A stretch of 42,735 nucleotides of DNA from Prolixibacteraceae bacterium (lineage in GTDB: Bacteria > Bacteroidota > Bacteroidia > Bacteroidales > Prolixibacteraceae), in contig JANXYV010000069.1 of NCBI GenBank assembly GCA_025355875.1, positions 1-42,735 on the forward strand, in the 5' to 3' direction. This document shows positions 30,638 through 37,573 of the stretch, in pieces (the first letter of the stretch is position 1; the number at the start of each line of letters is the position of its first letter). A program made the translations under genes and the position numbers. Under the pieces are notes generated by a model that made no database searches, was not told the DNA's origin, and saw nothing but the letters and a program-made list of their open reading frames with translations.

Positions 30638-30723
30638 ACTCACCCCCTTCGCATCTGCGATGCTCTGCCCCTCTCTACTTGTAGAGAGGGGGGAAGACCG
30701 AGTCTTCGGTCTTCGGGGTGAGT
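30638..30723. repeat. Three-armed cloverleaf palindromic repeat
   Basis: ACTCACCCC (30638-30646) and GGGGTGAGT (30715-30723) form a 9-bp outer stem. Inside are three hairpins. A small one is TCGC/GCGA (30649-30660), an 11-bp one is CCCCTCTCTAC/GTAGAGAGGGG (30668-30678 and 30681-30691), and a perfect 9-bp one is GAAGACCGA/TCGGTCTTC (30693-30701 and 30706-30714). The core words match the palindromes in the ISP gene, where outer stem and CCCCTCTCC arm recur. It is not a tRNA: the arms and loops do not fit. Confidence 0.75.
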
Positions 30724-30900: not shown

Positions 30901-32028
30901 CTAATCGAGCGACCATGCATCTTTCCAATGGATCTTTGGCGCATCTCCCTCGAAGGTAAGCGGCAGCCAGATGTACCGTCCATCAATATGGTTTTCAGGA
31001 GTCCAGCGATCTCCAATATAAATATAACAGTCTTTTTTACCTTCAACTTTCAAAACATAGGTGCTTTGAGAATGGAAAGTCAGTTCTGAATCGCTGCCAA
31101 CAGCCGGATTTCCAAGTTCTTTCCAATTGCCGAAAATCTGGTCGGAAACGGCTGACCTCGCGGCATTGGGCGCCCAGCCGGTGCAATCGGAAGCGATGAT
31201 GTAATATTTCCCGTTCCGTTTGAAAAGCGTCACGCCTTCCATGTACCTTTCGGTTAATAACCGGAAATATTGACCTGAATAAGACAGGTAATCGTCGTTG
31301 AGCTTTGAAATCTGCAGGGTACTGTTTTCTTCGGAAGCATAGATGTGATAAGCGGTACCATCATCGTCGACAAACAGGTTCATATCGCGGGCCATTTGTC
31401 CGCCTTTGAAATCACGACCCAGAATATTTAACGAATCCGGAGGAGCCGGAAGGCAACCTTTTCCTCCGCAATATTTTGATTTTACTGAACTTGACACCGG
31501 TTTTTTGTGGAAAGGCTGCACATTGACCGGCCAGAACCCGGCATTGGGCCGAAAACTTTTCAAATAAATATATGGTCCTGCCGGATTATTGCTGACCGCC
31601 ACTGCACTTCGGGCCGCATCATAGCCTTGTCCTTTCAGTTCCAGGTGGAACCACATCACAAACTTTTTGGTTTTCGCATTGTAAATCACCTTTGGGCGTT
31701 CAAGGGTACAGCCTTTGACAATATCGCTTGCCGGATCGGTTTCGTTCACTTTCAGTGCGATTCCTTCATCTTTCCAATTGTATAAATCTTTCGAAGAGTA
31801 ACAGCTTACACCAACCTGAGCCGTATTTCCAATTTCGCCTCCAACTTTGTGCTCGCCGTACCAATAGTATGTTCCGTTATGAAACAGTATTCCGCCGCCA
31901 TGTACATTAAGGTGCTTGCCGTTGTTGTCTTTCCAGATTTCGCCGGGAGTAAATTGCTTGTACGGTTGGGCATTCAAAGCTAAAATGCTGCAAAAAGAAA
32001 AGAGAAATAAGGAAATTTTCAGGTTCAT
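30901..32028 (-). CDS. Exported glycoside hydrolase family 43-like protein
   Basis: This 375-residue protein has a signal peptide (about 1-20, ending LNAQ) and a five-bladed beta-propeller pattern typical of GH43/GH117-type enzymes. It starts with LNVHGGGILFHNGTYYWYGEH and continues with SSKDLYNWKDEG, LERPKVIYN, MWFHLE, ARDMNLFVDDDGTAYHIY and YIIASDCTGWAPNAA. Family enzymes cleave arabinose, xylose or galactose linkages in plant or microbial glycans. The substrate cannot be read here. It stands alone, not in a SusCD-type locus, so it may be a stray or secondary enzyme. The blade acids expected for catalysis appear present. Confidence 0.82.
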   Translation of the reverse strand: MNLKISLFLFSFCSILALNAQPYKQFTPGEIWKDNNGKHLNVHGGGILFHNGTYYWYGEHKVGGEIGNTAQVGVSCYSSKDLYNWKDEGIALKVNETDPASDIVKGCTLERPKVIYNAKTKKFVMWFHLELKGQGYDAARSAVAVSNNPAGPYIYLKSFRPNAGFWPVNVQPFHKKPVSSSVKSKYCGGKGCLPAPPDSLNILGRDFKGGQMARDMNLFVDDDGTAYHIYASEENSTLQISKLNDDYLSYSGQYFRLLTERYMEGVTLFKRNGKYYIIASDCTGWAPNAARSAVSDQIFGNWKELGNPAVGSDSELTFHSQSTYVLKVEGKKDCYIYIGDRWTPENHIDGRYIWLPLTFEGDAPKIHWKDAWSLD

Positions 32029-34007: not shown

Positions 34008-34015
34008 TAGATTTG
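34008..34015 (+). promoter_or_regulatory. -7 box of the type ISP gene
   Basis: TAGATTTG fits TAnnTTTG and lies 33 bases before the ATG at 34049. It overlaps the alternative TTG start at 34013, which makes that start unlikely. Confidence 0.5.
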
Positions 34016-34048
34016 GACACTGTTCACCAAACCTATTCAGCGCGGAAC

Positions 34049-37000
34049 ATGTCGAAAATCCTGATCAACCAATACTACCAAAACCTCGACCGGACCCTTC
34101 AGTTCGGGAAAAGCCGAAACGAACAAAGCATCCGCAACCACTTCTGGCATTTGCTCAACGACTATGCCCGTAAATCGAATTATGAAGTGGTTCCTGAAGT
34201 GTCGGTTATGGGCACCCGGGGGCAAAAAGTACGCCCCGACGGTGTGGTGAAAAACCTTTGGGGTCTGGACATCGGTTTATGGGAGAGCAAAGACGGAAAA
34301 GACGATTTTGAAGTCGAGATTGACTCGAAAATCAAAAAAGGTTATCCCCTTACCAATATTCTTTTTGAGGATAGCAATATAGCTGTGCTCTTTCAGAGGG
34401 GAGAAGAGGTAAGACGTGCCAAAATGCGCGATGCCGATCAGTTGCACGACCTGCTTACCATGTTCATCAACTTTAAAAGCGAAACGGTTTATAAGTTTGA
34501 AGAGGCCATTGAAAAGTTCAAAGCCGATATTCCAATCATTGTTGAAACTCTTCGCAAAAAGATTGTTGAGAGCCGTGAAAAAAATCCCAACTTCCAGACT
34601 GTACAAAACACCTTTCTCGAACTCTGCAAGGCCGAAATTAATCCTGACATCACCCTGGAAGACATTCGCGAAATGATGATCCAGCACATCCTCACCAGCG
34701 ACATTTTCAACCGCATATTCGACGATCCCGATTTCCACCGGCATAATACAATTGCCGCTGAACTGGAAAAACTGATCGAAACGCTTTTTAGTTATGCCGA
34801 ACGCCGCAACCTGCTGAATTCCATAGAGCATTATTACGAAGCCATTAACGCCACGGCTGCCGGAATCACCGACCACCACGAGAAACAAAAATTCCTGAAG
34901 GTGATCTACGAAAACTTTTACAAAGTATATAATCCCAAGGCTGCCGACCGCCTGGGCGTGGTTTATACGCCCAACGAAATTGTGCGGTTTATGGTAGAAA
35001 GCACCAACTACTTACTCCACAAACATTTTGGCAAAACACTGGCCGACCGCAATGTTGAAATCCTGGACCCGGCAACCGGAACTGGTACGTTTATCTGCGA
35101 CATTATTGAACATGCTATTCCCAAACAGGATTTAGCCTGGAAATTCAAAAACGAACTCCACGCCAACGAGGTAGCCATTTTGCCTTACTACATTGCCAAC
35201 CTCAACATCGAATATACTTTCAAGCAGAAAATGCAATATTACGCCGAGTTTCCGAACCTCTGCTTTGTTGATACGCTCGACAACACCGATGCCCTTTCGT
35301 ACTCCGGGAAACAACACACCCTGTTTGGCCTGAGCAGCGAAAACACCGAACGAATCCGCCGCCAAAACAGCAAAAAAATTTCGGTGGTGATTGGAAACCC
35401 GCCATACAATGCCAACCAGCTCAACGAAAACGAGAACAACAAAAACCGCGAATATCCAACCATCGACAAGCGGATAAAGGATACGTACATTAAATACAGC
35501 ACGGCGCAGAAAACCAAGGTGTACGACATGTACTCGCGTTTTTACCGCTGGGGAATGGACCGGCTCGATAAAAATGGTGTACTGGCCATGATTACCAACC
35601 GAAGTTTTATCGACAGCCGCACCTTCGACGGCTTTCGTAAATGTGTGCTCGATGAATATGCTTACGCCTATATTGTTGACACCAAAAGCGACGTGCGCGC
35701 CAACCCCAAGATTGCCGGAACCACCCACAACGTCTTTGGCATCCAAACCGGCGTGGCCATTATGTTCCTGATCAAAAAAGAGAAGCAGGAAGGCCCTTGC
35801 CAAATAGAATACGTGAGCATGGAAGACGATTGGCGCAAAGAGGTTAAGCTCGACTGGCTAAAGAATAACCCGATTGCCAACATCCATTTCGAAACCATCC
35901 ATCCTGATAAAAACAACAACTGGATAAACCTTTCGGAGGAAAATGATTGGGAGGAATTGTTACCTGTTGCCGATAAAAATGTAAAACTTGGAAAAGGCGG
36001 AAATGCCATTTTTAAATTGTTCTCTTTGGGCGTGGTAACCAACAGGGATGAGTGGGTTTATGATGAAAATCAGACCGCATTAGAAAAGAAAGTTCAGTAT
36101 TTGATTAATGTCTACAATACCGATTTGCAAAGGCTGAAAGGGAAGGACAAAAATATAATTAAAGATGAAGTTGATTATTCTATAAAATGGACGAGAGCGG
36201 TTAAAAATGATTTGTTTAGAAATAAGGAATACAAAATAAATGAATCATTGATTATTGATAGTCTTTATCGTCCATTTGTAAAAAGGAAGTTGTATTTCAG
36301 TAATGAACTAAATGAAATGCAATACCAAAATAATCTGATTTTTGGGAACAACGGAAAACTTGAAAATACCTCAATCAATGTAAATTCAAATGGAATTGAT
36401 TTAAAGTTCTTTGCATCAAATATTATATCTGATTTGCATTTTGTTGGAGATAACCAGTGTCTTCCTCTTTACCGATACGACAAAAACGGAAACCGCACTG
36501 AAAACATTACAGACTGGGCGTTGGAGCGGTTTCGGGTGAGATATTCCTCACCCCCGGCCCCTCTCCAAAACGGAGAGGGGTGTCCGAAGGACGGGGTTAG
36601 GAAAGAAGAGGGGCTTGGGGAGAGGAGCCGCACCGTTGAGGTTCATCTGCCGCCTCAACTTTTGGAAAATGCCAGAGAATTGAGAAAAAATCAGACCGAC
36701 GCCGAAGAAATGTTGTGGCAATTGTTGCGGAACAGGCAGTTGGGTAATTTGAAGTTTCGGCGGCAACATCCACTGAGAGTCGGTTTCATACTGGATTTTT
36801 ATTGCGCCGATAAAAAACTGGGAATTGAACTTGATGGCGGATACCACAATTCAGCTGATCAGAAGGAACAGGATTCCCAGCGAACAGAAGCGATCAACGA
36901 ATACGGAATCCATATCATCCGCTTCACCAACGAGGAAGTGATCAACCATACCGATTCTGTGTTAAGACAGATACTTTCCTCACCCCCGCCCCCTCTCCAA

Positions 37001-37573
37001 AATGGAGAGGGGTGTCGGGGTGAGGTGGTGAGGAAGGAAGACATTTTCCATTACATCTACGCCGTACTGCACAATCCGGCCTACCGAAAAAAGTACGAGC
37101 TAAACCTGAAACGGGAGTTTCCGCGCATCCCGTTTTATGAAAACTTTGCCCAATGGTGCGGCTGGGGCCAACGCCTGATGGAATTGCACATTGGTTACGA
37201 AACTGTTGAGCCTTTCGCGTTGGAAGTTCACAACTCCCTTCTCCCATCGGGAGAAGGGCAGGGGATGAGGGATCTTAAAGTAAAAGCCAAGCTAAAGGCC
37301 GACAAAGAGACCGGAATTATTGAGATTGACGAACTGACTTACCTGAAAGGCATTCCGAAAATAGCCTGGGAATATAAACTTGGCAACCGTTCGGCGCTCG
37401 AATGGGTGCTCGACCAGTATAAGGAAAAGAAGCCCAAAGACCCTACCATTGCCGAAAAGTTCGATACCTACCGTTTTGCCGAATACAAAGACCACGTGAT
37501 CGACCTGCTGAAACGGGTCTGCACCGTGAGTGTCGAAACCATGAAGATTATCAGCGAGATGGAATTGGTTTGA
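34049..37573 (+). CDS. Type ISP restriction-modification protein with an inserted DUF559 nuclease domain
   Basis: This is a single-chain restriction-modification protein of 1174 residues. Near residues 64-81 a PD-(D/E)xK-like nuclease site is seen (RPDG, then ESKD). The N6-adenine methyltransferase follows, with motif I DPATGTGTF at 340 and NPPY at 450-453. Then comes a target-recognition region and the ISP C-terminus (EDIFHYIYAVLHNP, LNLKREFPRIPFYENF). I see no helicase motifs, unlike LlaBIII-type ISP enzymes, so it may be a shorter variant. Residues about 833-977 are a DUF559 domain flanked by palindromic repeats, and a further repeat is read at about 1062-1076. It stands alone. ATG 34049 follows the -7 box; TTG 34013 overlaps it. 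Confidence 0.85.
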   Translation: MSKILINQYYQNLDRTLQFGKSRNEQSIRNHFWHLLNDYARKSNYEVVPEVSVMGTRGQKVRPDGVVKNLWGLDIGLWESKDGKDDFEVEIDSKIKKGYPLTNILFEDSNIAVLFQRGEEVRRAKMRDADQLHDLLTMFINFKSETVYKFEEAIEKFKADIPIIVETLRKKIVESREKNPNFQTVQNTFLELCKAEINPDITLEDIREMMIQHILTSDIFNRIFDDPDFHRHNTIAAELEKLIETLFSYAERRNLLNSIEHYYEAINATAAGITDHHEKQKFLKVIYENFYKVYNPKAADRLGVVYTPNEIVRFMVESTNYLLHKHFGKTLADRNVEILDPATGTGTFICDIIEHAIPKQDLAWKFKNELHANEVAILPYYIANLNIEYTFKQKMQYYAEFPNLCFVDTLDNTDALSYSGKQHTLFGLSSENTERIRRQNSKKISVVIGNPPYNANQLNENENNKNREYPTIDKRIKDTYIKYSTAQKTKVYDMYSRFYRWGMDRLDKNGVLAMITNRSFIDSRTFDGFRKCVLDEYAYAYIVDTKSDVRANPKIAGTTHNVFGIQTGVAIMFLIKKEKQEGPCQIEYVSMEDDWRKEVKLDWLKNNPIANIHFETIHPDKNNNWINLSEENDWEELLPVADKNVKLGKGGNAIFKLFSLGVVTNRDEWVYDENQTALEKKVQYLINVYNTDLQRLKGKDKNIIKDEVDYSIKWTRAVKNDLFRNKEYKINESLIIDSLYRPFVKRKLYFSNELNEMQYQNNLIFGNNGKLENTSINVNSNGIDLKFFASNIISDLHFVGDNQCLPLYRYDKNGNRTENITDWALERFRVRYSSPPAPLQNGEGCPKDGVRKEEGLGERSRTVEVHLPPQLLENARELRKNQTDAEEMLWQLLRNRQLGNLKFRRQHPLRVGFILDFYCADKKLGIELDGGYHNSADQKEQDSQRTEAINEYGIHIIRFTNEEVINHTDSVLRQILSSPPPPLQNGEGCRGEVVRKEDIFHYIYAVLHNPAYRKKYELNLKREFPRIPFYENFAQWCGWGQRLMELHIGYETVEPFALEVHNSLLPSGEGQGMRDLKVKAKLKADKETGIIEIDELTYLKGIPKIAWEYKLGNRSALEWVLDQYKEKKPKDPTIAEKFDTYRFAEYKDHVIDLLKRVCTVSVETMKIISEMELV
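36545..36601 (+). repeat. Palindromic repeat copy 1, in frame in the ISP gene
   Basis: Bases 36545-36584 match 36977-37016 at 38 of 40 positions in the same orientation. CCCCTCTCC pairs with GGAGAGGGG around an AAAAC loop. GTCC/GGAC (36582-36592) forms a second arm, and CCTCACCCC (36546-36554) pairs with GGGGTTAGG (36593-36601) with one mismatch as the outer stem. It is translated in frame (SSPPAPLQNGEGC). Confidence 0.85.
36640..36976 (+). other. DUF559 (Vsr-like) endonuclease domain embedded in the ISP gene
   Basis: The translated segment is a near-complete DUF559 domain of about 110 residues. It opens with a helical RKNQTDAEEMLWQLLRNR region and FRRQHPLRVGFILDFYC. The active-site strand IELDGGYH carries the catalytic acidic pair, and RTEAINEYGIHIIRFTNEEV follows. 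DUF559 proteins are normally free-standing single-domain nucleases related to the very-short-patch repair fold. Here the domain has no start codon of its own needed, because the host frame reads through both boundaries. It lies between repeat copies 1 and 2. Confidence 0.85.
36977..37025 (+). repeat. Palindromic repeat copy 2, in frame in the ISP gene
   Basis: This copy has a perfect inner stem CCCCTCTCC/GGAGAGGGG (36990-36998 and 37004-37012) and a perfect outer stem CCTCACCCC/GGGGTGAGG (36978-36986 and 37017-37025). It lacks the extra GTCC/GGAC arm of copy 1. Its start is exactly 432 bases after the start of copy 1. Confidence 0.85.
37231..37275 (+). repeat. Third in-frame palindrome in the ISP gene
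   Basis: CCCTTCTCCC (37236-37245) and GGGAGAAGGG (37249-37258) form a perfect 10-bp stem with a three-base loop, followed by a G-rich tail. It is read as SLLPSGEGQGMRD inside the C-terminal host domain, between EPFALEVHN and LKVKAKLKA. It is a related but distinct palindrome type. Confidence 0.65.

Follow-up and report, generated by a model that had tools for sequence, protein, structure and literature searches.

Putative homing cassettes of the DUF559 family, often framed by palindromes, within conserved enzymes of Bacteroidota

How does a nuclease domain come to lie, with no break of reading frame, inside a restriction gene and between two near-identical palindromic repeats? The question is raised by contig JANXYV010000069.1 of a Prolixibacteraceae bacterium (assembly GCA_025355875.1), the 42,735 nucleotides of which are here called the window. 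Its open reading frame (ORF) 34013-37573(+) encodes 1186 residues in an uninterrupted frame from end to end, the TTG start having been assigned mechanically, and carries a DUF559 domain in its C-terminal part. A prediction made from the DNA alone had read this domain not as an ordinary fusion but as a nuclease that is modular and probably mobile. Our analysis supports that view, and the best explanation of the locus is that it belongs to a widespread class with the order palindrome, DUF559 nuclease, palindrome in linkers or loops of conserved enzymes. The features of the locus are the following.

34013-37573, plus strand: host gene, a DrdV-like single-chain restriction-modification protein with the cassette (ORF scan, Pfam, 7lo5 match)
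36544-37030, plus strand: inserted stretch (approximate), from after ...ERFRVRY to before RKEDIFHY (comparison with short-linker homologues)
36544-36609, no strand: left repeat unit, 66 nucleotides, palindrome core 36558-36580 (repeat and hairpin search)
36659-36979, plus strand: DUF559 (PF04480) domain, an EDxHD/Vsr-like nuclease that retains its conserved acidic and His residues (Pfam, profile, fold)
36976-37041, no strand: right repeat unit, 66 nucleotides, same orientation, 85% identical, palindrome core 36990-37012 (repeat and hairpin search)
37236-37258, no strand: lone palindrome, 10-base-pair (bp) perfect stem, 3-nucleotide loop, in frame in the host gene (hairpin search)

The repeats begin at 36544 and at 36976, with exactly the predicted spacing of 432 bp, and show only two differences within their first 41 nucleotides. 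Their cores are GC-rich hairpin palindromes of the form CCCCTCTCC-AAAAy-GGAGAGGGG, a pattern that, with up to three mismatches allowed, gave zero matches in 100 shuffles of the window. The domain occupies residues 884-989 of the host protein (Pfam expectation value, E, 3.9e-33), bordered by about 38 and about 17 residues of linker that are largely repeat-encoded, and its conserved residues are D (36794-36796), E (36827-36829), D (36833-36835) and H (36845-36847). The open frame, the Pfam domain and the hairpin cores thus bear out the claim of a DUF559 domain in frame between near-identical direct palindromic repeats. The lone palindrome follows the right palindrome of the cassette at a distance of 224 bp, in a region that is variable among homologues. 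A 73-nucleotide query (36540-36612) has four matches in the genome, namely the two window copies and two weaker ones elsewhere. In a REP-RAYT element (repetitive extragenic palindromic sequence with its associated tyrosine transposase), a Y1 tyrosine transposase stands beside or between the repeats; the protein between the window repeats is DUF559. Pfam detected no transposase family in the host ORF, a scan that did not extend to neighbouring genes or the rest of the genome, and no splicing (Hint) domain of the kind that marks an intein was found in the host protein.

The host had been called a type ISP gene. Type ISP restriction enzymes carry an SF2 helicase/translocase domain within the same chain, and a Pfam scan of the 1186-residue protein detected no helicase family. 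Its best structural match by sequence comparison is 7lo5, which we take to be DrdV (residues 14-846 and 1006-1183, 1036 bits); the match is collinear across the N-terminal, methylase and specificity regions, and for the type ISP structures LlaGI and LlaBIII the best matching stretch is only residues 190-832 and 190-839, respectively. Because the DrdV match spans both sides of the insert and no helicase family was detected, the host is better named DrdV-like, and the type ISP label survives only as the Pfam name of the C-terminal domain. DrdV, the closest solved relative over nearly the whole length of the host, has no DUF559 cassette between its residues 840 and 843, exactly where the match breaks. 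A full-length structure model of the window protein from an eight-row alignment was poor (mean predicted local distance difference test score, pLDDT, 48.9; predicted template modelling score 0.29) and was left unused.

Homologues of the host show the same junction empty, holding only a palindrome, or occupied, which is what supports a modular nuclease over an ordinary fusion. The empty state, found by aligning homologues as the original prediction had proposed, consists of 12 residues between ...NITDWGLxQF and DIFHYxYAVLHNPxYR in L119, L120, L121 and L122, so the domain is not a fixed part of the family. In L116, which is 84.8% and 75.1% identical on the two sides, the perfect palindrome GTAGAGACGTTGCATGCAACGTCTCTAC stands at the junction with no cassette; L117 has another palindrome there, of the CCTCTCC/GGAGAGG kind, and L118 has an AT-rich stretch with inverted halves that is probably a palindrome-only state as well. 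A DUF559 cassette occupies this position in L052, which comes from a distant member of the phylum. The DrdV-like linker has thus taken several palindromes and two cassettes, each in frame, and, since its two DUF559 inserts are not shown to be sisters, it reads as a tolerant hotspot entered more than once. In the DUF559 tree the window domain groups with two inserts in HsdM (support 100/97), and L052 has no supported placement; to judge from these sequences, the window copy is more likely a fresh insertion into such a hotspot than the outcome of homing between DrdV-like alleles. Among the homologues read, no allele has exactly one copy of the window repeat, and excision by recombination between the repeats is thus unsupported.

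Is the inserted domain a nuclease, and does it behave as one that is kept intact? The conserved D, E, D and H are present in 78, 79, 77 and 77 of 79 in-frame copies, respectively. The median ratio of nonsynonymous to synonymous differences per site (pN/pS) of inserts within host groups is 0.11-0.27, with HsdM represented by one pair and pS near saturation in some groups; the ValS host itself gives 0.074, and four DUF559 copies that stand alone give 0.32. By these measures in-frame DUF559 retains its predicted active site and is under purifying selection. The exceptions, L047 and L048, lack conserved residues and are decayed DUF559 inserts, in hosts that read as LeuS from their flanks rather than by a family-model scan; they possibly represent a stage of decay. 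A profile of 16 DUF559 domains matches 3hrl (1.3e-31) and 3r3p (2.1e-7), the latter being the catalytic domain of the homing endonuclease I-Bth0305I, and the predicted DUF559 fold (pLDDT 84.8) resembles both structures, with template modelling scores of 0.67-0.73. Profile, predicted fold and conserved acidic and His residues together indicate a catalytic domain homologous to that of the EDxHD enzymes, and DUF559 is most likely an EDxHD-type homing nuclease. One sentence in a 2022 paper places a DUF559 gene in the EDxHD family (PMC9403480), another DUF559 protein has been termed Vsr-like (PMC12907096), and a fusion of DUF559 with a tRNA methyltransferase had already been noted in 2007 (PMC1829167).

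The window is far from alone in this architecture. Its own genome (97.9% complete, 230 contigs) has only two DUF559 matches, and each of them lies in frame within a larger gene and is flanked by palindromes. The second lies in valS between a different pair of palindromes, and this is the one strong valS match of the genome, the only other being a weak match that covers 59 residues at 36% identity and belongs to a different frame, 890 residues long. Together with its relatives, 54 of 101 genomes have DUF559; among the listed matches with E of 2.1e-23 or below (97 in the 101 genomes), 28 lie in frames of at least 300 residues. A match was also present in 222 of 395 genomes drawn across the phylum. 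Family models, run for representatives, identify as hosts ValS, IleS, LeuS (at two sites), MetH, RecG, IcmF, HsdR, HsdM, an AddA/RecB-like helicase, a UvrD-like helicase, an Eco57I-type enzyme and Type_ISP_C proteins; other hosts were labelled by BLAST or by reading flanking motifs, and L049-L051, which match DUF559 only in part, were regarded as other proteins and excluded. Further fusions place DUF559 at or near an end of PurQ, HisF, HisD, HemF, HemD, TrpF, RNase H and others. Related fusions within one family of the phylum are found in L102, L106, L109, L113 and L114, L102 being a fusion to coproporphyrinogen III oxidase and L113 to uroporphyrinogen-III synthase.

A scan of named genomes with an IleS/ValS-type query returned 497 relatives. 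In the best 80 of the 497 loci, 78 of 81 DUF559 ORFs have at least 250 residues, a proportion biased towards in-frame forms by the type of query and by the restriction to the best 80. By BLAST, their hosts are IleS (33), RecG (16), MetH (10), ValS (4) and LeuS (2), with 13 ORFs left without assignment. Cultured strains are among them: the RecG cassette occurs in Tenacibaculum discolor DSM 18842, Winogradskyella jejuensis DSM 25330, Flavobacterium amnicola and Algibacter luteus, the IleS cassette in Maribellus maritimus and the MetH cassette in Croceitalea dokdonensis. MetH is entered at two different places; read by eye from the flanks, L251, L254, L259, L263 and L307 have DUF559 at the second, towards the C-terminal end. 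One record of the scan is labelled Bdellovibrio, so either the phenomenon or an error of binning may reach beyond Bacteroidota.

Across families the DUF559 alleles sort by host gene, with 25 label changes on the tree (from which the decayed L047 and L048 were omitted) compared with 68.4 after shuffling, a procedure that ignores kinship. A supported clade (98/92) holds 46 inserts, nearly all of them in core enzymes and zero of them stand-alone copies; it also contains the Type_ISP_C protein L044 and the peptidase-like L101.

The ValS site allows empty, palindrome-only and full states to be compared within one genus. In the window's genus the site was readable in 20 of 23 genomes, of which 8 are full, 2 are palindrome-only (G020 and G010) and 10 are empty, the empty junction reading SKLYYLKYxI-short loop-FVTIATTRPETI. 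What the two palindrome-only alleles have is precisely the 30-bp 3' palindrome seen in four full alleles (G000, G001, G004 and G009), and this identity marks the two as collapse products or precursors. The ValS host tree interleaves the states, pairing a full with a palindrome-only allele (G004 and G020, 98/96) and a full with an empty one (G005 and G014, 98/94). Moreover, two insert lineages only 52-62% identical to each other occupy ValS hosts up to 99% identical. In the pair G001 and G021 host identity is 99.1% on one side of the insert and 96.0% on the other, compared with 55.7% for the inserts, and among the 28 ValS pairs with hosts at least 85% identical, 14 have inserts less than 62% identical. 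One ancient insertion passed on by vertical descent would not produce that pattern. IleS is intermediate, 4 of 23 close host pairs having a foreign insert; the corresponding comparison for MetH pooled the two sites and was not used.

The palindromic ends were assessed by an ungapped match scoring at least 13 between the flanks, up to 200 bp on either side of DUF559, with controls from the same locus at the same spacing. The set comprised matches covering at least 80 model positions with unique domain DNA (108 entries, 106 with usable flanks), and a domain was counted as in frame when it lay in an ORF of at least 250 residues, a few of which have no identified host. Among the in-frame cases, a repeat common to both flanks occurs in 36 of 78 (20 direct, 29 inverted, some both), compared with 3 of 390 controls; for stand-alone cases the figures are 20 of 28 (18 direct, 9 inverted) and 3 of 140. 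The 78:28 split is not a population ratio, because the searches supplied the loci with the best scores and preference was given to cases in long frames. A second set of 65 in-frame loci, left after 12 duplicates of the first set and the stand-alone or short-flank rows had been dropped, gave 20 with a shared repeat (3 direct, 19 inverted) against 3 of 325 controls. Inverted pairs are the usual form in frame, as illustrated by AGCCCCCTcTAACTCCCCCgaGGGGGAG (left end, after L035) and CTCCCCCtccGGGGGAGTTgAGGGGGCT (right end, after L036); the direct arrangement seen in the window is less common. Among the stand-alone DUF559 genes (within L006-L079), flanking repeats are more often direct than inverted, the reverse of the in-frame cassettes. 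Counting hairpins gives weaker support than the paired-repeat test: stems of at least 9 occur on the left in 24 and on the right in 27 of the 78, against 9 of 468 controls. The original prediction survives this comparison, since palindromic repeats flank other DUF559 loci too, although a pair is detectable in fewer than half of the in-frame ones.

The C5/G5 palindrome, a dispersed one, occurs in 40 of the 101 genomes, with up to 43 matches each (overlapping ones counted) and one match in total for the reversed control pattern; the ValS-type pattern has 20 matches in the window's own genome, counted likewise, and 0 for its control. DUF559 is present in 31 of the 40 genomes that bear the C5/G5 palindrome and in 23 of the 61 without it (Fisher p 1e-4), an association with kinship uncontrolled that we do not use as support. 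Elsewhere in the window, at 30668-30714, two adjacent perfect hairpins, CCCCTCTCTACTTGTAGAGAGGGG and GAAGACCGAGTCTTCGGTCTTC, lie downstream of ORF 30901-32028(-).

Would any small domain turn up inside larger frames in this way? PF05635, a four-helix domain as small as DUF559 and present in 83 of the same 101 genomes, has among its listed matches none in a frame of more than 193 residues. Among the listed matches of GIY-YIG, itself a homing family, one lies in a frame of 1205 residues, the HsdR-like protein L314 (2965-6579(+), G031:C79), at about the site where L061 carries DUF559 and with a palindrome-like stretch at its 5' side; this is perhaps a second homing family using the same strategy. 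The other listed GIY-YIG frames comprise one of 322 residues and nine of 599-620 residues, the nine being presumably UvrC, to judge by size.

Among known systems, the nrdA gene of phage Aeh1 reportedly has a homing nuclease inside a coding gene without splicing, the host gene being cut into pieces ('genes-in-pieces'). The unspliced nuclease within a coding gene is the likeness; the difference is that here the frame runs through. Inteins with homing endonucleases resemble the cassettes in their in-frame insertion into conserved enzymes and their patchy distribution, and by eye the ValS insert lies near a conserved motif, but the Pfam scan of the window's host protein detected no splicing domain, and the cassettes are located in variable loops or linkers. 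I-Bth0305I, an intron-associated EDxHD homing endonuclease according to the review PMC3943268, has a homologous catalytic domain by profile and predicted fold, with the alleles here sorted by host gene; unlike it, the window cassette bears no sign of an intron or intein, and the domain stays in the host frame. Palindromes of the REP type lie inside a tRNA synthetase gene, recB and other genes, and Rickettsia palindromic elements (RPEs) inside Rickettsia reading frames (PMC3733652). The window cores and the palindrome-only ValS alleles are likewise translated hairpins in otherwise conserved genes, a trait of palindromic elements of this RPE/REP type, and lone palindromes occur here too. The difference is that here a pair of palindromes brackets a nuclease, of which the excerpted text of PMC3733652 makes no mention for RPE or REP. 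A literature search on DUF559/PF04480 with palindromes or tRNA synthetases, within open-licence papers, found no account of in-frame DUF559 cassettes between palindromes; DUF559 as an EDxHD nuclease and in-frame palindromes in proteins are each known in print separately, and we did not find the union of the two described.

That nuclease cassettes have been inserted in frame recurrently is very probable on this evidence, and homing is, by a little, the likelier driver of their spread. The cassette would be translated as part of the host protein without a splicing element, which is the simplest reading of an unbroken frame with translated linkers in which no splicing domain was detected. The DUF559 nuclease would cut alleles or related sites lacking the insert, and repair from the occupied copy would spread the cassette. 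The palindromes would provide in-frame linkers and probably also the ends at which a cassette is gained or lost, loss leaving a palindrome-only allele. Empty, palindrome-only and full states, decayed copies and different insert lineages in near-identical hosts are what such a cycle would leave behind. The fullest form of this interpretation is that of a new class of selfish elements, splicing-free and palindrome-framed homing cassettes (EDxHD/DUF559, occasionally GIY-YIG) in loops of essential Bacteroidota enzymes, which would spread, decay or collapse to a palindrome scar and reinvade, and so complete a homing cycle with neither intron nor intein; we give it a probability of roughly 40%.

Several observations weigh against the homing account. 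Neither cleavage nor transfer has been observed. A paired repeat is below threshold in 42 of the 78 and 45 of the 65 in-frame cases. The ValS host tree is mostly unsupported (3 of 18 inner branches starred), and G001 has, in an incomplete assembly, a second, uninterrupted valS-like gene 66-75% identical, which is either a paralogue or a contaminant. RecG inserts look vertical, with a foreign insert in 0 of 47 close host pairs and a correlation of 0.69 between insert and host divergence, and inserts usually diverge more than their hosts, as is expected too for a loosely constrained domain inherited vertically. Sorting on the tree is weakest for the Type_ISP_C hosts, with 5 changes among 6 rows, and the tree also fails to unite the window and L052 inserts as sisters at their common DrdV-like site. 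As to whether cassettes lie next to the most conserved motif of the host, the best conserved 15-column stretch within 60 columns downstream of the insert ranks in the 96th-100th percentile at 7 of 8 host sites (71st at MetH site 2), and upstream at 80-100; we do not count these ranks as evidence, because the top stretch among so many is certain to reach a high rank. Finally, C5/G5-type palindromes occur without DUF559: G089 has 25 matches although DUF559 is not matched in that genome, and the present occurrence of these palindromes therefore does not require the nuclease.

In the strongest rival the palindromes, REP- or RPE-like, are the movers, inserted into tolerant loops by an unknown enzyme, and DUF559 is a captured passenger. 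The lone palindromes found at the DrdV-like site, where other homologues have cassettes, represent at least two unrelated sequences and probably three, the window host gene has another lone palindrome elsewhere, the C5/G5 palindromes are dispersed as described, and insertion of lone palindromes in frame is known from Rickettsia and other bacteria (PMC3733652). A passenger, however, would hardly keep its nuclease residues in nearly all copies, nor would its alleles be expected to sort by host gene, and the in-frame cargo consists of homing-type nucleases, whereas the more widespread PF05635 is not found in frame among the matches listed. We regard this explanation as unlikely, though it deserves to be taken seriously.

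The purifying selection on the inserts is equally what a domesticated domain would show, the nuclease giving its host a useful function such as defence or the mismatch repair that has been proposed for Caulobacter VsrA, a DUF559 protein held to act on DNA (PMC12907096), and several hosts are indeed restriction-modification proteins. The hosts taken together, however, have no common function (tRNA synthetases, MetH, RecG, IcmF, HemF and HisF), and valS orthologues of the same genus do without the domain, which makes domestication improbable. Vertical inheritance of an ordinary fusion, or of a single ancient insertion with many losses, suits RecG and would also sort the alleles by host gene. It is contradicted for ValS, where two insert lineages share one site in near-identical hosts and the states are interleaved with good support at two places, and the paired palindromic ends also speak against it; as a general account it is very improbable. 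That the architecture is an artefact of assembling metagenome bins is scarcely credible: the fragmentation of the window's assembly would allow it, but isolates such as Tenacibaculum discolor DSM 18842, Winogradskyella jejuensis DSM 25330, Maribellus maritimus and Croceitalea dokdonensis, which have the same architecture, already contradict it.

Homing elements in essential genes are thought to need self-splicing in order to be tolerated. The nuclease cassettes described here appear to persist unspliced in essential genes, including the only strong valS match of the window's genome. If the homing interpretation is true, the lone in-frame palindromes would be at least partly scars or non-autonomous forms of nuclease-bearing elements, and the long-known in-frame palindromes of bacterial proteins would gain a driver and DUF559 a role. 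The cassettes would also be natural examples of tolerated domain insertions in tRNA synthetases, MetH and RecG.

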